This document shows positions 5,172-13,083 of a stretch of 64,000 nt of DNA, one piece after another. How positions within the stretch are numbered: position 1 is the stretch's first letter; each line of letters starts with the position of its first letter. The stretch spans positions 3,658,001-3,722,000 of the forward strand of contig NZ_CP113063.1 of NCBI RefSeq assembly GCF_026625785.1. Direction: 5' to 3'. The stretch is from Gordonia sp. SL306 (GTDB lineage Bacteria > Actinomycetota > Actinomycetes > Mycobacteriales > Mycobacteriaceae). The notes under the pieces were generated by a model, which had not been told where the DNA came from, searched no databases, and saw only the letters and a list, made by a program, of their open reading frames with translations. The translations under genes and the position numbers were made by a program.

Positions 5172-7334
5172 TCACACGGGCGTCATCTGTGCATCCCGCT
5201 GGGCGGGCATCGGTGCCTCCGTCGAACCGGCCTCGACATCCGGCTCGAGTCCGACCTGCGGCAGTATCCGGTCGAGCCACGCGGGCAGCCACCAGTTGAC
5301 GCGCCCCAACAGCGACATGGTCGCCGGTACCAGGACCATCCGAACCAGGGTGGCGTCGAGGAAGACGGCCACCGCCATACCCAGACCCAGCATCTTCATC
5401 ACGATGTCGGTCTCCGTCGCAAAGCTGAGGAACACCGCGACCATGATCGCCGCCGCAGTGGTGATGACCCGGCCGGTCTTGGCCAGCCCGCTGATGACGC
5501 TCGCCCGCGCGTCACCGGAGGTGAGCCAGTCCTCGCGGATGCGGGAGAGCAGGAACACCTCGTAATCCATCGAGAGGCCGAACAGGATCGCGAAGATGAG
5601 TATGGGCACCCAACTCGACACCGCGACCGGGTTGTCGACGCCGAGCAACGACAGGCCCCATCCCCACTGGAACACGGCGGTGATCACCCCATAGGCGGCG
5701 GCCACCGACAGAAGGTTCATCGCCGCGGCCTTCACCGGGACCACCACCGACCGGAACAACACGGTCAGCAGGATCACCGAGGCGACCACGACGAATCCGA
5801 TCACCAACCACAGCCTGCGCTGCAGCATGTGCGAGATGTCGTCGTAGTAGGGGGTCTCGCCGGCCAGGATCGCGCCGTCGGGTAGACGCTCCCGGATATC
5901 CGAGAGCACGTCGCCGGTGGCCGCGGCCGCCGGATCGGCACCGATGGTGATCGGAGCGATCTCGATTGCGCCGTCGGGGGATTCGGTGACCGGTGCCACC
6001 GCGGTCACACCCGGGACGCGGGCGATGTCACGCAGCGCTGACATCAGCTGGTCGCGATCGGTCTCGGCCGACGGTGCGACGACCACGACGTCGGCATTGG
6101 TCCCCGGACCGAACTCGGCGGCCAGCAGGTCATGTGCGCGCCGCGTGGTCAGTTCCGTCGACTGGGCACCGGAATCCGATGGCCAGGTGCGCATCGCGGC
6201 GGCCGGCGCGGCCAACGTGACGAGCACGATCAGCGCCAGCAGGATCGCGACGACGGGCCGTTGCCCCACCCGTCCGGCCCAGCGAGCGGTCAGCGGCATG
6301 CGAGGCGCCACGCCGTCGGTTGCCGCGGGGAGGGGGCGCCTGGCCTTGCGCGGCACGATCCGGCGACCGGCCAGCCGGCACAGGGCGGGCACCACCACCA
6401 GGGTCGCGGCCAGCATCGCCACCACCGCGATCGCGGTGGCGAAACCGAACGACGAATACGTGGGCAGCCCGGCGAGCCGGAGGCCCATCAACGAGACGAG
6501 CACGGTGGTTGCGGCGAACGTCGCGGACCGGCCCGCGGTGGCGACCGACCGCGCGGCGGCCTCGACCGGATCGTGGCCGCGTCGGAGGAACTCGACGTGC
6601 CTGCTGACCACGAGCAGGGCGTAGTCGATCCCGACGCCCAACCCCACCATGCTCGCGACCATGGGCGCGGTGGGGCTCACGTTCATCACCCCGGCGAGCA
6701 GCATGACCCCGGCCGATCCCGCGATCAGCCCGGTGACCGCGGTGACGATCGGCAGACCGGCGGCGACCACCGATCCGAAGGCGAACACCATGATGAGCAG
6801 TGCGAGGGTGATCCCGATGATCTCCGCGTGTCCCTTGATCGGGGCGGCCGCGGTCTCGGGTACCGACCCGTTCATCTCGACCTGTAGGCCATCGTCGGTG
6901 GTGGGGGCGACGGCCTTCTCGAGGCCGTCGGCGTTGCCCATGATCGACCGGTCGGTGACCGGGACGTCGTACCCGACGGTGACGACCGCGGTGTCCCGAT
7001 CGGCGCTGTACCGGGCGTCGCTGACGGTGGCCACGTGGTCCGTGTCGCCGAGCCGGTCACGCAGTCCGTCGATGGCGGACGCCGGAATGATCCCGTCGTC
7101 GGAGTGGACGACGATGCGCGCGAACGCATTTCCGGCGCCGGGCACGTGTTCGCGGAGTAGGTCGATCCCGACCTGGGAGGGGGTGCCGGTGACGTCCCAG
7201 TCCTCCTGGGTGTCACCGCCGAACGTGGCCGATGCGGCCAGGAGGATGCCGAGCGCGGAGACAAAACCGATCAGTGCTCGGATCGGATGGGCAGCATTGG
7301 CGTGCCCGATCCGGTACAGCAGGGTGGTCTTCAT
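5172..7334 (-). CDS. MMPL/RND family transporter
   Basis: 720 residues with the duplicated RND layout: one membrane helix near the N-terminus (about 17-38), a large outside loop, a block of five helices, then the same again. Family motifs are clear: 'GVGIDYALLVVSRH' and 'RRGHDPVEAAARSVATAGRS' in the first half, and 'FGLSMDYEVFLLSRIRE' and 'ISGLAKTGRVITTAAAIMV' in the second. Proton-driven export of lipids or drugs is the family role; the size (720, not 900+) fits the small MMPL/YdfJ-type members rather than the large mycobacterial lipid exporters. The ATG at 7334 has AAAGGA upstream. No accessory MmpS-like gene is adjacent, so substrate is unknown. Confidence 0.9.
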   Translation of the reverse strand: MKTTLLYRIGHANAAHPIRALIGFVSALGILLAASATFGGDTQEDWDVTGTPSQVGIDLLREHVPGAGNAFARIVVHSDDGIIPASAIDGLRDRLGDTDHVATVSDARYSADRDTAVVTVGYDVPVTDRSIMGNADGLEKAVAPTTDDGLQVEMNGSVPETAAAPIKGHAEIIGITLALLIMVFAFGSVVAAGLPIVTAVTGLIAGSAGVMLLAGVMNVSPTAPMVASMVGLGVGIDYALLVVSRHVEFLRRGHDPVEAAARSVATAGRSATFAATTVLVSLMGLRLAGLPTYSSFGFATAIAVVAMLAATLVVVPALCRLAGRRIVPRKARRPLPAATDGVAPRMPLTARWAGRVGQRPVVAILLALIVLVTLAAPAAAMRTWPSDSGAQSTELTTRRAHDLLAAEFGPGTNADVVVVAPSAETDRDQLMSALRDIARVPGVTAVAPVTESPDGAIEIAPITIGADPAAAATGDVLSDIRERLPDGAILAGETPYYDDISHMLQRRLWLVIGFVVVASVILLTVLFRSVVVPVKAAAMNLLSVAAAYGVITAVFQWGWGLSLLGVDNPVAVSSWVPILIFAILFGLSMDYEVFLLSRIREDWLTSGDARASVISGLAKTGRVITTAAAIMVAVFLSFATETDIVMKMLGLGMAVAVFLDATLVRMVLVPATMSLLGRVNWWLPAWLDRILPQVGLEPDVEAGSTEAPMPAQRDAQMTPV

Positions 7335-7444: not shown

Positions 7445-8029
7445 GTGTTCTTGAGCCCGAACGGGGTGGATCGCACGATCACCGACGCGGTGGTCGACGT
7501 ACGCACCGACCTCCTCACCGACATCGCGCTCGTCGTCACGGCGACGGGCAACACCCTGGTGCTCACGACGGTCGTGGTGGTCGTCGTCCTCGGCCTCGTC
7601 GGCAATCATGCGTTTCCTGAGGCGATCCTGGTGGGGGCGGGTTCGTTTGCCGGCTACCTGCTGATGGTGGGTCTGAAGCATCTGTTCGCCCGACCCCGCC
7701 CACCGATCGCCGACCGCCTGCTCGACATCGACACCTACTCGTTCCCGTCTGGCCACGCGATGATGAGCACGATCGTGTTCGGACTGCTGGCCGTCGCGGC
7801 ATATCGCCTCAGTGCCTGGGTACGTGACCATCCGGTGGTACTGCTGATCGCGCCCATCTGGGCGATCGCGATCGGGGGCACGCGTGTGTACCTCGGTGTG
7901 CACTGGACCACCGACGTGCTGGCGGGGTGGCTGATCGGTGCGGTCTGGGTCGCGGCGTGCGCCTGGCTGTGTGCGCATTGGGCGGCGACGCCGCAGCGAC
8001 AACGCACGGACCGCCGCGCGGAACCCTGA
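7445..8029 (+). CDS. PAP2-family phosphatase, membrane
   Basis: 194 residues with the three PAP2 signature blocks: K78-x6-R85P86 ('KHLFARPRP'), 'PSGH' at 101-104, and 'TRVYLGVHWTTD' at 146-157 with catalytic His153. The first residue of the third motif is Thr where Ser is more usual. About five hydrophobic segments place it in the inner membrane, where PAP2 enzymes dephosphorylate lipid phosphates such as phosphatidate or undecaprenyl diphosphate. GTG 7445 is the only start codon in the open frame after a stop at 7400; no clear ribosome site is visible. It lies between the divergent MMPL gene and an acyl-CoA dehydrogenase. Confidence 0.85.
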   Translation: MFLSPNGVDRTITDAVVDVRTDLLTDIALVVTATGNTLVLTTVVVVVVLGLVGNHAFPEAILVGAGSFAGYLLMVGLKHLFARPRPPIADRLLDIDTYSFPSGHAMMSTIVFGLLAVAAYRLSAWVRDHPVVLLIAPIWAIAIGGTRVYLGVHWTTDVLAGWLIGAVWVAACAWLCAHWAATPQRQRTDRRAEP

Positions 8030-8066
8030 GACAGGGATTCCTCCGCATTCACCGTTTCCGACCGAC

Positions 8067-8072
8067 TACCGT
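8067..8072 (+). promoter_or_regulatory. -10 hexamer TACCGT, leaderless layout
   Basis: TACCGT ends 7 nt before the ATG at 8080, and no Shine-Dalgarno sequence is present, matching the leaderless pattern seen repeatedly in this window. Confidence 0.45.
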
Positions 8073-8079
8073 CGCGAGT

Positions 8080-9333
8080 ATGGATTTCGCCCTCTCCGCA
8101 CGGTCGGCCGACCTGACCGATCGTGTGCGCACGTTCATGGCCGACGAGATCATTCCCGTCGAGGCGCAGGTGCACCGCGACATCGCGCGACGGCGCGAGT
8201 CCGGCGAGGACCGGTGGACGCCGCCCCCGATCCTCACCGAACTCAAGAGCAAGGCCCGCGCTGCCGGCCTGTGGAACCTGTTCCTGCCCAAGGAACATGC
8301 CGGCCGGTACGCCGCCGACTTCGGCACAGACGGGGGCGAAGGACTGTCCAACGTCGACTACGCACCGATCGCCGAGGCGATGGGGGCCTCGATGCTCGCC
8401 CCGCTGGTGTTCAACTGCAATGCCCCCGATACCGGCAACATGGAGGTGTTGCTGCGTTACGGCACCGAGCCGCAACGCGAACGGTGGCTGGAGCCCCTGC
8501 TGAAGGGTGAGATCCGCAGCGCCTTCTGCATGACCGAACCCGACGTCGCGTCGTCGGATGCGACGAACATGGCCGCCACTGCGATCCCTGACGGCGACGA
8601 CGTGATCATCAACGGCACCAAGTGGTTCTCCACCGGCGTCGGCAATCCCGACTGCAGGATCTTGATCTTCATGGGGGTCACCGACGCGACCGCCGATCGG
8701 CATGCGCGGCACACGATGGTGCTCGTGCCGATCGACGCCCCCGGCGTCACGGTCGACCGCATGCTCACCACGATGGGCTACTTCGACGAACCGCTCGGAC
8801 ACGGCGAGGTGTCGTTCGACGACGTGCGGGTGCCTGCGTCGAACATCCTGCTGGGACCGGGAAGGGCGTTCGAGATCGCCCAGGGCCGACTGGGTCCCGG
8901 CCGCGTCCATCACTGCATGCGTGCCATCGGCCTCGCCGAACGCGCTCTCGAACTCGGTGTCCGTCGCTCGTTGGAGCGCACCGCATTCGGCCGGCCACTG
9001 GCCAAGCTGGGCGGCAACAGCGAACGTATCGCCGACGCCCGGATCGCCATCAACCGATCACGGCTCCTGGTCTTGCACGCGGCCTGGCTGCTGGATCAGG
9101 GGCTTTCGCGAGAAGCGGTCTCGGCGGTGAGCGAGATCAAGGTGGAGGTGCCCAACATGGCCCTCGACGTGATCGATCTGGCGATCCAGCTGCACGGCGG
9201 CGCGGGCCTCACCGACGATTTCCCGCTCGCGGCATCCTGGGTCGGCGCCCGAGCGCTGCGGCTGGCGGACGGACCGGACGAGGTGCACCGCGGTGTCGTC
9301 GCGCGGATCGAGCTGGGGAAGTATCGCGGATGA
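8080..9333 (+). CDS. ACAD10/11-type acyl-CoA dehydrogenase
   Basis: 417 residues. The frame extends upstream, but the domain starts at ATG 8080 (MDFALSARS) and a leaderless -10 sits in front. It has acyl-CoA dehydrogenase motifs ('FCMTEPDVASSDATN', 'WFSTGVGNPDC') and a C-terminus, 'LRLADGPDEVHRG', that closely matches what I remember of animal ACAD10/ACAD11. Those enzymes carry a kinase domain in the same chain; here the kinase is the next gene (9371), 37 nt downstream. Family knowledge: ACAD10/11 and the bacterial levulinate enzymes act on 4-hydroxyacyl-CoAs by phosphorylation followed by phosphate elimination. By analogy this enzyme may act on a phosphorylated hydroxyacyl-CoA (inference). 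Confidence 0.85.
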   Translation: MDFALSARSADLTDRVRTFMADEIIPVEAQVHRDIARRRESGEDRWTPPPILTELKSKARAAGLWNLFLPKEHAGRYAADFGTDGGEGLSNVDYAPIAEAMGASMLAPLVFNCNAPDTGNMEVLLRYGTEPQRERWLEPLLKGEIRSAFCMTEPDVASSDATNMAATAIPDGDDVIINGTKWFSTGVGNPDCRILIFMGVTDATADRHARHTMVLVPIDAPGVTVDRMLTTMGYFDEPLGHGEVSFDDVRVPASNILLGPGRAFEIAQGRLGPGRVHHCMRAIGLAERALELGVRRSLERTAFGRPLAKLGGNSERIADARIAINRSRLLVLHAAWLLDQGLSREAVSAVSEIKVEVPNMALDVIDLAIQLHGGAGLTDDFPLAASWVGARALRLADGPDEVHRGVVARIELGKYRG

Positions 9334-9370
9334 GTGGCGATGGATCGTGTCGGAGTCGGAGGGAGACAAC

Positions 9371-10444
9371 ATGAGCAGCCAGGTGGCGGGGGCCAAGGCG
9401 GTACGGGACGAGGATGCGTTCGACGTCGAGCGGGTGGCGCAGTGGTTGCGCGCGAATGCCGACGACGCAACAGGTCTCGACGGCACGCCGGAGGTCCGTC
9501 AGTTCTCCGGCGGCGCTTCGAATCTCACGTTCCAGCTGACCTATCCGGACCGGGAGGTCATTCTGCGCCGGGCGCCCAAGGGCACCAAAGCGCGGGGCGC
9601 GCACGACATGGGCCGCGAGTACCGCATCCAGTCGAAGCTCGCAGGCGTTCTGCCCTACGTGGCACCGATGGTTGCCTTCTGCGACGACGAGTCGGTGCTG
9701 GGCGCCGACTTCTATGTGATGGGCAAGATCGACGGCGTCATCCCCGGCAAGGAATGGCCCTCAGACGTCGCTCTGTCGGACGAACAGGCCCGCCAACTCT
9801 GCTTCACCTTCATCGACGTCCTCGTCGAACTCCATTCGGTCGACGTCGAGGCGGCCGGCCTCGCCGATCTCGGCAAGGGCCTCGGCTACGTCCGGCGCCA
9901 GGTCGACGGATGGTCGACCCGGTTCCGCAACGCCCGCACCGACGATGCGCCCGACTATGAATCGGTGATGGCGTGGCTTGACGAGAACCAGCCCGACGAC
10001 GTCGCGAACTGTGTCATCCACAACGACTACAAGCTCGACAACGTCGTCCTGGCGACCGAGGATGTCACCCGCGTGGTCGGCATCCTCGACTGGGAGATGG
10101 CCACATTGGGTGATCCGCTGATGGATGTCGCCGGTTCGCTCGCGTACTGGGTGCAAGCCGACGATGACGAACAGCGGCAGATGATGCGCCGGGTGCCGAC
10201 CAATCTGCCGGGCATGATCACCCGAGCCGAGTTCGTCGAATATTATTGCGAGCGAATGGGTTTCGCGATGACGCCCGATCGGTGGCGATGGTATGAGGTG
10301 TTCGGGTTCTTCCGATCCGCAGTGATCGCCCAGCAGATCTACTACCGCTATTACCACGGACAGACCACCAACGAGGCGTTCGCGATGCTCGGCGCAGCCG
10401 TTCACCTCATCGACGAGGAGATCGCGCGGCTGATGGCGCGTTGA
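9371..10444 (+). CDS. ACAD11-type phosphotransferase (APH/ChoK-like kinase)
   Basis: 357 residues with the aminoglycoside-phosphotransferase fold: 'FSGGASNLTFQLTY' (nucleotide loop), Lys/Arg-rich strand 'VILRRAPKGTKARGAHDM', Brenner motif 'CVIHNDYKLDNVVL' with catalytic Asp219 and Asn224, and metal-binding 'ILDWEMATLGDPLMD'. The last two blocks resemble the kinase half of ACAD10/11 rather than antibiotic kinases. ATG 9371 is preferred over an upstream GTG because GGAGGGAG precedes it. It follows the ACAD gene closely and ends back to back with a convergent hydrolase (TGA/TCA adjacent at 10442-10447). Likely substrate is a hydroxyacid or hydroxyacyl-CoA, not an antibiotic (inference). Confidence 0.85.
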   Translation: MSSQVAGAKAVRDEDAFDVERVAQWLRANADDATGLDGTPEVRQFSGGASNLTFQLTYPDREVILRRAPKGTKARGAHDMGREYRIQSKLAGVLPYVAPMVAFCDDESVLGADFYVMGKIDGVIPGKEWPSDVALSDEQARQLCFTFIDVLVELHSVDVEAAGLADLGKGLGYVRRQVDGWSTRFRNARTDDAPDYESVMAWLDENQPDDVANCVIHNDYKLDNVVLATEDVTRVVGILDWEMATLGDPLMDVAGSLAYWVQADDDEQRQMMRRVPTNLPGMITRAEFVEYYCERMGFAMTPDRWRWYEVFGFFRSAVIAQQIYYRYYHGQTTNEAFAMLGAAVHLIDEEIARLMAR

Positions 10445-11293
10445 TCACCGGCCGGTGGCCGGGACCCTCGCCAGGAACGTGCCGATCTCCCGGGCGACCG
10501 CCGCCGGCTGGTCCAGCATCGACAACACGTACGCATCGTGGATCTCGGCGTACCGGGCGTTGGGGATCAGATCCGCGAGCCTTCGCCCGTGTTCGGGCGG
10601 CATCACCCGATTCTCCGGCGACCACAACACCAGTGCGTCGCCGCCGAATTCGGCGAGCGCTTCGGTGTCGCGGATCAGTTCCGCATCGGCGAACGTGGTC
10701 GCGGCGTACTTCTCCAGGTCGCGACGGACACCCGCGTTCGTCAGGCACGGATCGGTCCACCGGCGGACGACGTCGTCGGGGATCGGGCGCCGCACCATCC
10801 AGCCGAACAGCAACGGCGTGCGGCGCAGCCACCCGATCCGCAGCTGCCGAGCGGCGAGGGTGATCCCACCGGGGAGTTTTGTCGCAAGCGTGGCCATCCG
10901 GCCGGGGAGGCCGGGTGGGAAGTTGTCGAATGCCTCACACGGCAGCACCACCATCGCGTTGACCCGGTCGTCACGGCCGATCGCGGTGAGGAAGAGCCCG
11001 CCTCCCCAGTCGGCATGAACGAGCGTCACGTCGTGGAGGTCGAGTGCATCGAGGAAGTCGGCGACCAGGTCGACCATCCCGGGCAGTGCGAGGTCGGCAT
11101 CCGGGTTCATCGCGACCCGGTGCCCGCCGAGCGGTAGGACCGGGCGGATGTACCGGAATCCCTTCGGGAGCAGCGGCAGCGTGGTGTCCCAGACGGTCTC
11201 GTCCATGAGCAGGCCGTGCAGCAGCACCACGGGCGGACCGTCCCCATCATCGGTGTATTCGATCGTGCCGGCGGGTAACCGAACCTGCATCAT
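10445..11293 (-). CDS. Alpha/beta-hydrolase with Asp nucleophile and no catalytic His at the usual place
   Basis: 282 residues, single alpha/beta-hydrolase domain with oxyanion motif 'LLHGLLMDETVW' and nucleophile elbow 'VHADWGG' in which Asp95 replaces Ser. Asp at this place is typical of epoxide hydrolases and haloalkane dehalogenases. The segment expected to hold the general-base His reads 'IHDAYVLSMLDQP' (251-263), with Val256 where 'GHF' normally supplies His; the nearby His252 is in a different position. The ATG at 11293 has AAGGAG upstream. Diverges from a TetR gene across three CTAG-centred palindromes. Catalytic competence and substrate are uncertain; I recall similar C-termini in other uncharacterised actinobacterial hydrolases. 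Confidence 0.8.
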   Translation of the reverse strand: MMQVRLPAGTIEYTDDGDGPPVVLLHGLLMDETVWDTTLPLLPKGFRYIRPVLPLGGHRVAMNPDADLALPGMVDLVADFLDALDLHDVTLVHADWGGGLFLTAIGRDDRVNAMVVLPCEAFDNFPPGLPGRMATLATKLPGGITLAARQLRIGWLRRTPLLFGWMVRRPIPDDVVRRWTDPCLTNAGVRRDLEKYAATTFADAELIRDTEALAEFGGDALVLWSPENRVMPPEHGRRLADLIPNARYAEIHDAYVLSMLDQPAAVAREIGTFLARVPATGR

Positions 11294-11330
11294 GATGAAC
11301 TCCTTCTCGTGGCGTCCGTCTGGAGTAGTC

Positions 11331-11366
11331 TCTCTAGAGAAATCACTCTAGAGCAAATGATCTAGG
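11331..11366. promoter_or_regulatory. Triple CTAG operator with embedded -10 (divergent hydrolase/tetR)
   Basis: TCTCTAGAGA (11331-11340) is a perfect palindrome, CTCTAGAG (11346-11353) repeats its core, and a degraded third copy GATCTAGG lies at 11359-11366. The CTAG centres are 14 bp apart each time. TAGGAT (11363-11368), 7 nt before the tetR GTG, is the probable leaderless -10 and overlaps the third copy, so bound repressor would block its own promoter. Confidence 0.6.
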
Positions 11367-11375
11367 ATGTGAACC

Positions 11376-11954
11376 GTGCAGACAGATCAGCGCATCACCG
11401 TGGCGATGGCGGAGCTCCTACGTCGGCAGGGCTACGCCGGGACCGGGATCAAGCAGGTCATCGAGGCGGCGGGTGTGCCGAACGGCTCGCTGTACCACCA
11501 CTTCCCGGGCGGCAAGAGCGAGATCGCCGGGGTGGCGCTGCGGACCATGGGCGCTGCCTACGCCGAGCTGGTCGGCGGGCTGCTCGCCGACGGCGACGAT
11601 CTGCCTGCCGCCATCGAGCGTGCCTTCGACGCCGCCGCGGACGACATCGAGAGCACGGGCTGGGTCAACATGTGCCCGGTCGGAACGATCGCCGGCGAGG
11701 TCGCCGACGCCGAGCCCGCCCTGCGTGAGGTGGCGGCCGAGATCTTCGTCTCGTGGATCGACGGCGGTACGGAACTCGTCGTGGGCCGGGGGTACGCCAC
11801 TGACGACGCCCGCGGGTTGGTGACGGCGCTCGTGGCCGCGCTCGAAGGGGCCTTTGTGATGGCTCGGACACTCCGGTCGACCGAACCGCTGCGTGGTGCC
11901 GGTCGCGCGATGGCTGCGTATGCCTCGTCGCTGCCGGTCGGTGTGCGGTCGTGA
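11376..11954 (+). CDS. TetR/AcrR family regulator (LmrA/YxaF-like)
   Basis: 192 residues. N-terminal HTH 'LLRRQGYAGTGIKQVIEAAG' plus 'VPNGSLYHHFPGGKSEIA', a spelling common in the LmrA/YxaF/QacR-like TetR branch with 'GSLYHHFPGGK'. GTG start at 11376 fits the leaderless promoter. The C-terminal domain has two Cys-free helical halves apart from 'MCPVGTIAGEVA', also typical of that branch. Divergent from the Asp-nucleophile hydrolase and sharing its CTAG operator array, so it probably represses that gene; the inducer may be the hydrolase substrate (inference). Confidence 0.87.
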   Translation: MQTDQRITVAMAELLRRQGYAGTGIKQVIEAAGVPNGSLYHHFPGGKSEIAGVALRTMGAAYAELVGGLLADGDDLPAAIERAFDAAADDIESTGWVNMCPVGTIAGEVADAEPALREVAAEIFVSWIDGGTELVVGRGYATDDARGLVTALVAALEGAFVMARTLRSTEPLRGAGRAMAAYASSLPVGVRS

Positions 11955-12012
11955 GCGAGCAGGCCGGCCGCGCCTTGACCTTCACGTTGGTGGAAACCCC
12001 AGCATTGTCGTC

Positions 12013-13083
12013 ATGACCAACGACGACCTCCTCACCATCAGTGTCTTCGCGCGGGCCTGCGGCCTGACCGCGAGCGCGCTGCGCTTCTACGCCGACTCCG
12101 GGTTGCTCGAGCCCGCATTCGTCGACGACGCCACCGGTTACCGCTACTACACGCAGGAACAGCTGGACGGTGCCGTGTTGGTCCGGCGCCTGCGCGAGAT
12201 GGGGATGCCGTTGTCGCGCTTACGCGATGTGATCGACAGTGGCGACCCGCGATCGGCCGCCGATCTGATCGACGATCACCTGGCGGAACTCGCGGCCAGA
12301 GTGCGCAGTGCGACGGAGATCGCCGAAGTGGCCAAAGAGTCGTTGTCGGCACCGGCGCGGGCCGCGACGGTGCATGTGGACCTCAGCGGTATCCGCCTCG
12401 CCGCGGCGCTCGAACAGGTACTGACGGCGACAATCGTCGATGCTGAGTTCCCGCTGCTGAACGGGGTGCACGTGGTGGTGGGGGCCGGTGCGATCACGCT
12501 GGTGGCGACCGATCGACTCCGGTTGACGACGCGGACGCTCGCGACGAACGGTGGAACCGGCGACACCTGGTCGGCCACCATCGACGCCGACGAACTGCGG
12601 TCGACGTTGTCGTGGGTCCGGCGACAGCATCAGGTGTCGCTCACCGATGGTGACGGGACTGTCGAGATCACCTCGGAGGCCGGAGTCCGACGGTGCCGGA
12701 CGTTGGACGTCGGGTTCCCCGATCATGAGGAGATGCTGAGGTCACTGCCGCCGAGTGTGACTCGCGCCGTGGTCTCGGCTGGCCGGTTGCTCGATGTCGT
12801 CGAGCAGTTCCGCTCGAGGTACCTGCGACTCGAGATCGGCTCGTCCGGAGACGATTTCGTGGTCTCGGGAGGAGCGGACGAGCCGGCCGTGGCGGTCGCG
12901 GCGTCGGTCAGTGGTCCGGCCATCGGTCTCGACTTCGATGTGGTGACCCTGCATCCCGCCCTCGGGGGTGCGATCGGTCCCGAGGTGATGCTCGAGTTCT
13001 CCGGGCCGGAGTACCCGATGATCGTGCGGTCCGCCGACAGTGGCGATCTGACCACCGTCGCGATGCCGGTCCGGGTGAGCTGA
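12013..13083 (+). CDS. MerR-type regulator fused to a DNA sliding-clamp (DnaN)-like domain
   Basis: 356 residues. Residues 1-75 are a MerR HTH: 'TISVFARACGLTASALRFYADSGLL' region with 'GYRYYTQEQL' and 'RRLREMGMPLSRLRDVI'. After a short helical linker, residues about 120-356 look like two DNA polymerase III beta-clamp subdomains: 'LLNGVHVVVGAGAITLVATDRLRLTTR' region (compare DnaN 'AVATDRYRLA'), 'DADELRSTL', and a C-terminus ending 'AMPVRVS', close to the 'LMPVRL' end of DnaN. Start is ATG 12013; the frame is open further upstream but begins inside tetR. A true clamp needs three subdomains per chain, so the fusion is probably a ligand- or partner-binding derivative. Function unknown. Confidence 0.8.
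   Translation: MTNDDLLTISVFARACGLTASALRFYADSGLLEPAFVDDATGYRYYTQEQLDGAVLVRRLREMGMPLSRLRDVIDSGDPRSAADLIDDHLAELAARVRSATEIAEVAKESLSAPARAATVHVDLSGIRLAAALEQVLTATIVDAEFPLLNGVHVVVGAGAITLVATDRLRLTTRTLATNGGTGDTWSATIDADELRSTLSWVRRQHQVSLTDGDGTVEITSEAGVRRCRTLDVGFPDHEEMLRSLPPSVTRAVVSAGRLLDVVEQFRSRYLRLEIGSSGDDFVVSGGADEPAVAVAASVSGPAIGLDFDVVTLHPALGGAIGPEVMLEFSGPEYPMIVRSADSGDLTTVAMPVRVS

Follow-up and report, generated by a model that had tools for sequence, protein, structure and literature searches.

A MerR regulator carrying domains II and III of the sliding clamp DnaN in Gordonia sp. SL306, with a possible role as a target-mimic sensor

The open reading frame at positions 12013–13083 (forward strand, as are all features given below unless stated) of a 64,000-nt stretch of the Gordonia sp. 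SL306 genome (contig NZ_CP113063.1, 3,658,001–3,722,000 of the forward strand; hereafter the window) encodes a protein of 356 residues. Family profiles, an AlphaFold2 (AF2) model and structure alignment confirmed that a MerR regulator is joined here to domains II and III of the actinobacterial sliding clamp DnaN. Residues 8–75 (12034–12237) form the MerR winged helix-turn-helix (HTH), which passed the Pfam cut-offs for both PF13411 (MerR_1, E-value 7.5e-14) and PF00376 (1.1e-8), and the best single-sequence PDB match of this HTH is CueR. It is followed by a long helix (residues 79–111, 12247–12345; single-chain AF2 secondary structure) at the place of the MerR dimerisation coiled coil, by clamp domain II (residues 121–230, 12373–12702; PF02767, 2e-7, with AF2 and VIA-align) and by clamp domain III (residues 250–354, 12760–13074), which lacks the dimer-interface segment according to profile, AF2, VIA-align and sequence alignment. 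The match to TIGR00663 (dnaN) covers model positions 124–366 only, as domain I is absent and MerR stands in its place, and the protein reaches 35.6 bits against the NCBIfam dnaN equivalog, for which the cut-off is 137.65; it has two of the three clamp domains that a DnaN chain comprises. The TipAS effector domain PF07739 was not among the five Pfam families reported for the protein at E ≤ 10, a search in which the HMMER filters drop most matches above about 0.1. In structural comparison of the predicted model, mycobacterial DnaN (5ah2, 8dj6) was closest, and the window genome encodes one full DnaN besides the fusion gene. An earlier sequence-only reading had proposed a MerR DNA-binding domain followed by the middle and last subdomains of DnaN down to a final MPVR motif, and this was borne out: AF2 and VIA-align give the fold of clamp domains II–III for residues 121–354, the profile matches point to DnaN, and the terminal VAMPVR (residues 349–354) aligns with E. 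coli V360–R365.

Among the candidates scored, 267 proteins match the window protein at E ≤ 1e-3, and nearly all of the 120 that were listed combine MerR with the DnaN central domain; their named hosts are Gordonia, Amycolatopsis, Saccharothrix, Nocardia, Rhodococcus, Streptomyces and a few other actinomycetes. Judged from these matches, the window protein belongs to a conserved family, whose members we refer to as MerR-clamp proteins. A survey of the class for second DnaN-like copies also returned MerR fusions with about 30% identity to the window protein, which we call subfamily B, the window protein and its closer relatives being subfamily A. Among 296 genomes sampled evenly from the class, a subfamily-B query found matches in 22 and a subfamily-A query in 25 (E ≤ 1e-25), 27 genomes being matched by one or both. 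The fusion is already annotated in databases, as ‘MerR family transcriptional regulator’ or ‘DNA polymerase III subunit beta family protein’, and we found no paper on its function in the open-licence PMC literature, searched mostly by title; the earlier suspicion that such a family exists without a described function agrees with what was found. What appears new is the type of sensor proposed for this MerR regulator. For subfamily A we worked with 81 loci, namely the window and 80 kept of 419 genome stretches encoding relatives.

To compare the clamp part with genuine clamps, 43 members were aligned with E. coli DnaN, the DnaN of the window genome and 28 actinobacterial DnaN sequences, and the residues lining the peptide-binding pocket were taken from the list in PMC11139829. 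In the window protein the pocket is represented by the subsite I motif TDRLRL (residues 166–171, 12508–12525; E. coli T172–L177; family consensus TDRYRL, with L at the Y position here), by PDHEEM (residues 236–241, 12718–12735; E. coli P242–V247) and by the C-terminal wall VAMPVR (13057–13074). Across the members, the subsite I residues L155, L177, P242 and M362 are present in 43/43, T172 in 42/43 and R176 in 41/43; the G174 position is R in all 43 and the H175 position is Y in 40 (L in the window protein), and subsite I is thus kept. P363, counted with subsite II, is, like M362, invariant (43/43). The DnaN consensus is found at 10 of the 12 subsite I positions, compared with 72 of 227 background columns (p 2.4e-4), and 8 of the 12 are conserved among MerR-clamp proteins as well as in DnaN, compared with 25 of 227 columns (p 2.6e-6). 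Subsite II of subfamily A matches the DnaN consensus at 3 of 6 positions, which is not above background. The ring-closing I272/L273 segment is gapped in 43/43 members, E304 is not kept and the inner basic residue K198 is D in 36/43. With its ring interface deleted and inner basic residues gone, the clamp part, as judged from the alignment, is not a working clamp. Of the two ideas raised by the sequence-only reading, a clamp-derived sensor is favoured by the retention of subsite I, the loss of clamp functions and the MerR-type promoter described below, while clamp-like assembly on DNA finds no support, given these same changes at I272/L273, E304 and K198. A response to replication or repair state, which that reading also suggested, is treated below as a rival.

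Subfamily B largely retains both subsites, with N or D at position 320, Y or F at 323, and P363 and R365 in all 12 readable sequences; here too E304 is gapped in all sequences and K198 is lost in 12/13. In 9 of the 13 subfamily-B genomes a ribosome-binding site and an ATG immediately precede the clamp domain, and translation from this internal start would give a protein made of the clamp part alone. Such a start also occurs in 8 of 33 Micromonospora genes and is hence not universal. Among the 81 subfamily-A loci the pattern was matched in one, elsewhere in the linker, and in none just before the clamp; the linker of the window protein contains no ribosome-binding site with ATG, and we found no sign of two isoforms for it.

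Directly upstream of the window gene lies a MerR-type self-promoter, consisting of the −35 element TTGACC (11975–11980; exact in 80/81 loci), a 19-bp spacer with a predicted dyad-shaped MerR operator (11981–11999; scored across the 81 loci) and the −10 element CAGCAT (12000–12005), of which A2 and T6 are found at the 19-bp spacing in 79/81 loci. The complete arrangement (TTGACC, 19-bp spacer, A2 and T6 of the −10) is present in 79/81 loci and the start codon follows 6–7 nt past the −10 in 75/81, counts that were scored at the best position in about 160 nt per locus, without a shuffled control; the exceptions are locus L080, which lacks the promoter, and L086, which is better read with a 20-bp spacer. 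In the window the ATG at 12013 begins 7 nt after the −10. Because the start codon lies so close, the regulator mRNA is predicted to be mostly leaderless. At least 5 of 7 dyad positions are matched in 60/81 loci; with 3 of 7, the window dyad is more diverged than most of the family. The same architecture was found in 13/13 subfamily-B genomes (12 with exact TTGACC, one with TTGACT). In the MerR-clamp genes L181/L160 of genome G018 and L276 of G384, the MerR part is interrupted and the promoter is still there. The promoter of CueR, the best single-sequence PDB match of the HTH, likewise has TTGACC with a 19-bp spacer; in the window protein the metal-binding loop of CueR is replaced by the 240-residue clamp module. 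With a MerR-type promoter at its own start, the regulator may act on its own expression.

A protein of about 165 residues, which we assign to the tetratricopeptide repeat (TPR) family, is encoded downstream on the same strand in 65/81 loci, where its gene overlaps that of the regulator or is separated from it by no more than about 200 nt (the TPR match being partial in L034 and L063). Its model comprises eight helices and is all-helical, with a predicted local distance difference test (pLDDT) score of 92.8; TPR_12 was matched at E ≤ 0.1 in 21/30 members (best 1.3e-4), the single-member Pfam matches shown lying below cut-off, and a PDB search with the model returned nothing at E ≤ 1e-3, although TPR proteins stand out among the weak structural matches. 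In Streptomyces sp. LaPpAH-108 (L053), the focal frame at 7968–9590 is a natural in-frame fusion of the MerR-clamp regulator and the TPR protein. Nine further genomes were searched for the TPR gene, of which two positive controls matched, six gave no match and that of L022 contained only a remnant; this remnant (G123:C46:237802–237903), covering residues 6–39 directly behind the regulator, is a decayed partner gene. On the unrooted tree, presence or absence of the TPR gene changes 9–10 times, of which 7–8 changes are forced by supported branches, and this reads as repeated loss of the partner. When the neighbourhoods of 80/81 loci were clustered (L082 gave no focal gene), no general neighbour emerged besides the TPR gene, the next-largest cluster comprising 13 loci, although the crude gene calls used for clustering miss genes; around subfamily-B genes, no recurrent neighbour was seen in 13 loci within about 8 kb on each side. 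What lies beside the fusion, a point that the sequence-only reading had left for later counting, is the TPR gene as the only recurrent neighbour. Coevolution of the pocket with this partner was considered and rejected, as subsite I is kept alike in the 65 TPR-positive and the 16 TPR-negative loci, and for the same reason the TPR protein is unlikely to be the sole ligand of the pocket.

We searched whole genomes for further copies of the operator. In the window genome the sole site with 0 mismatches is the MerR-clamp self-promoter, and three further sites with 1–2 mismatches compare with one for the reversed control; two of these three, L119 and L121, were rejected as targets, both lying in overlapping open frames. 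Across 30 other genomes, 26 sites with ≤ 1 mismatch were found in 22 genomes and none with the reversed control. Of these, 22 are self-promoters; the other four fall in long open frames, with no MerR-clamp start behind them. Eight of the 30 genomes gave no site at this threshold, and the search therefore misses diverged operators. In most genomes searched the predicted regulon is the regulator itself, and in the window species only the self-promoter appears. The 13 subfamily-B genomes contained 20 sites at ≤ 2 mismatches, 12 of them perfect and all 12 adjoining the regulator gene; the eight weaker sites (1–2 mismatches) showed no excess as further targets, the reversed control giving 12. Only two of the weaker sites, both in G226, are in promoter position, one at the start of a major facilitator superfamily (MFS) exporter gene and the other in the dnaA–dnaN gap upstream of the canonical dnaN.

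The predicted regulon is wider in Micromonospora. Among 121 genomes of this genus, operator sites with ≤ 1 mismatch were present in 95, and the reversed pattern gave none. We classified 90 sites from 53 genomes, taken in listing order and representing part of all sites found: 33 precede the regulator itself, 19 lie upstream of dnaN, 13 belong to an MFS exporter, 10 to a YunG-like gene (product PF24585, 7.8e-41), 7 to a TPR gene and 8 are other. YunG-like genes stand under the operator in L273, L278, L303, L314 and others, and G414 carries two such sites (L278, L303) with products 99–100% identical. The unlinked TPR genes under the subfamily-B operator are about 52–57% identical to the partner over near full length in six of the seven cases, the seventh having a partial match. 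It is telling that the operon partner of subfamily A, or its family, appears to recur, unlinked, under the operator of subfamily B. In the five named classes, 82/82 sites have A2 and T6 of the −10 with a start codon 6–8 nt on, and none of the 8 other sites has a start codon at that distance. Five operator-like sites among Micromonospora (L262, L302, L334, L340, L342) share a similar −10 (GACAGT, GACGGT, GAGAGT), have no start codon at 6–8 nt and possibly form a sixth target class; L302 and L334 precede weak MFS matches.

The dnaN-class sites lie about 690 nt before the dnaN start. Conservation of their −35 and dyad proves nothing, because both were selected by the search pattern, and we therefore looked at the −10, whose identity is 0.92 compared with 0.42–0.51 in the 120 nt before the site and 0.74–0.77 after it. 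A GTG or ATG follows 6–8 nt past the −10 in 19/19 sites (L265, L266, L269 and others), with open frames of varying length. Because this start codon is not that of dnaN, a long leader would precede dnaN in the transcript. A self site is also among the classified sites of 10 of the 19 genomes that have one at dnaN. Absence of a self site does not mean absence of the gene: G410 shows MFS and YunG-like sites only, and regulator P0171 is present in the corresponding named genome. The regulator occurs in many named Micromonospora.

Some further genes surround the window locus. A TetR-like regulator, recognised by eye, occupies 11376–11954 (+) and ends 58 nt before the MerR-clamp gene; it is divergent from an alpha/beta hydrolase-like gene (10445–11293, −), and TCTAGAG is repeated between the two (about 11330–11365). 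A large MmpL/RND-like membrane transporter, also assigned by eye, is encoded at 5172–7334 (−), and no operator match was reported there.

The DNA sliding clamp is a known antibiotic target. We propose that the MerR-clamp protein is a target-mimic sensor, that is, a one-component MerR activator in which a piece of DnaN that no longer serves as a clamp has become the effector domain and mimics the drug target, a reading to which we give about an even chance. A molecule that normally occupies the peptide pocket of DnaN would bind the fused pocket, the likeliest ligands being cyclic peptides of the griselimycin/mycoplanecin type, which bind this cleft of DnaN (PMC10817943). Ligand binding would twist the dimer on the operator and thereby activate the 19-bp-spacer promoter, so the regulator would make more of itself as a decoy; in most subfamily-A members seen, the TPR partner would be made along with it, and in relatives the same operator would add dnaN, an MFS exporter and a YunG-like protein. 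This chain from ligand to activation is our inference. In some relatives an internal start may give a free clamp-only decoy, as with TipAL/TipAS; TipA is the precedent for an autoregulated, drug-sequestering MerR protein with two starts (PMC7762955). The likeness to the TipA class (TipAL/TipAS, SkgA, AlbA) extends to the order of MerR HTH, long helix and large effector domain, to the possession of its own promoter and to being self-contained, and some subfamily-B relatives share a predicted internal start for a short sensor-only form. The MerR-clamp protein differs in that its effector is DnaN domains II–III rather than TipAS, in that the window member has no internal start, and in that the operator of the Micromonospora relatives also reaches dnaN and an exporter. 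With DnaN itself it shares the fold of domains II–III, pocket subsite I and the MPVR end, but MerR replaces domain I, ring interface and inner basic residues are lost, and subsite II is altered in the subfamily of the window protein. GriR and MypR, second DnaN copies within the biosynthetic clusters of griselimycin and mycoplanecin producers, are described as self-resistance proteins in PMC10817943. They, too, are DnaN-derived proteins tied to clamp-targeting antibiotics, a tie that for the MerR-clamp protein is proposed; however, they are dnaN genes in biosynthetic clusters whereas here we deal with a regulator. Amplification of the dnaN region has been linked to resistance against griselimycin (PMC8765428, PMC5694481), so raising dnaN would be a sensible answer to such a drug. 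At somewhat less than an even chance, and hence tentatively, we extend the proposal to a hitherto undescribed actinobacterial response to sliding-clamp poisons in which a target-pocket regulator detects clamp-binding natural products and induces decoy, dnaN and export.

Several observations weigh against this proposal. The window protein has L where Y, F or H stands in subsite I; subsite II of subfamily A is altered (N320 to A, E or D; Y323 to T in 39/43; V344 to D in 28/43), and R365 is retained in only 14/43 of its members. The TPR partner was searched for and is absent from both the window locus and the window genome, the genome-wide operator search there returned no second site with 0 mismatches, the scan upstream of dnaN found no operator near that gene, and the window species thus appears to show a bare self-promoter only. 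When 27 MerR-clamp genomes were scanned upstream of dnaN, the operator was found in G226 only; the other 26 regions score ≤ 8.1 compared with 33–48 for subfamily-B self-promoters, giving 0/25 genomes outside Micromonospora, and G095, also a Micromonospora, has no dnaN operator either. Thirty DnaN loci scanned alongside score similarly low, including those of the MerR-clamp genomes G018, G101 and G057. As the search pattern fixes −35 and dyad, independent signs of promoters at the Micromonospora sites come only from the −10, the spacing of this element and the start codon, and binding of the MerR-clamp protein to these sites is deduced solely from operator identity. Finally, the wide occurrence of the regulator among named Micromonospora would also suit a housekeeping role in clamp supply.

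The last point leads to the main alternative, a sensor of clamp supply, in which no antibiotic is involved and the pocket binds the cell’s own clamp-binding motifs (polymerases, ImuB and others) at times of clamp shortage or of plentiful repair factors, and dnaN expression goes up in response. We regard it as unlikely, though serious: it draws on the same pocket evidence as the target-mimic reading and on the presence of the regulator in many Micromonospora, and the dnaN operator in that genus, with its 19 of 90 classified sites, fits a sensor of clamp supply and a sensor of clamp inhibitors alike. However, it hardly accounts for the exporter, to which 13 of the 90 sites with this operator belong; outside Micromonospora, self-promoters were the only sites to stand out in the genomes tested; and subsite II, which receives the conserved Gln of the motif (PMC11139829), is altered in subfamily A. 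It is improbable, in our view, that the clamp fold is merely a scaffold for sensing an unrelated small molecule, with subsite I conserved for structural reasons. The pocket residues may include buried positions for which the conservation test was not corrected, and the divergence of subsite II in subfamily A fits such a scaffold, but dnaN itself is among the predicted targets, and subfamily B, at about 30% identity, has kept both subsites including R365 while losing E304 and, in 12/13, K198. A sensor or decoy for phage proteins that attack the clamp was suggested by the complex of the clamp with Gp168, a phage clamp inhibitor, among the structural matches (7evp); we consider it very improbable, as PADLOC yielded only a match to the MerR helix (mad1) and a weak Cmr5 match (0.0064), no neighbour other than the TPR gene recurs, in neighbourhoods where defence genes were not searched for, and an exporter under the operator does not fit. 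That the protein still forms part of a clamp, ringing with itself or with DnaN on DNA, has a negligible chance of being correct, given that domain I is absent, that I272/L273 are gapped in all 43 members, E304 is not kept and K198 is mostly D, and that the genome already has one full DnaN.

If the target-mimic reading is true, the MerR-clamp protein is a one-component regulator that senses through a stripped copy of an antibiotic’s own target, and in one genus the gene encoding that drug target is among those it is predicted to control. Clamp inhibitors are a class with a preclinical tuberculosis candidate, and the regulator would offer a ready reporter for their discovery and would reveal where bacteria encounter natural ones. 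It would also become possible to test directly how dnaN transcription is controlled in these bacteria. If the wider proposal of a response to clamp poisons holds, the spread of the family would mean that soil contains far more inhibitors of the griselimycin kind than the few described so far.
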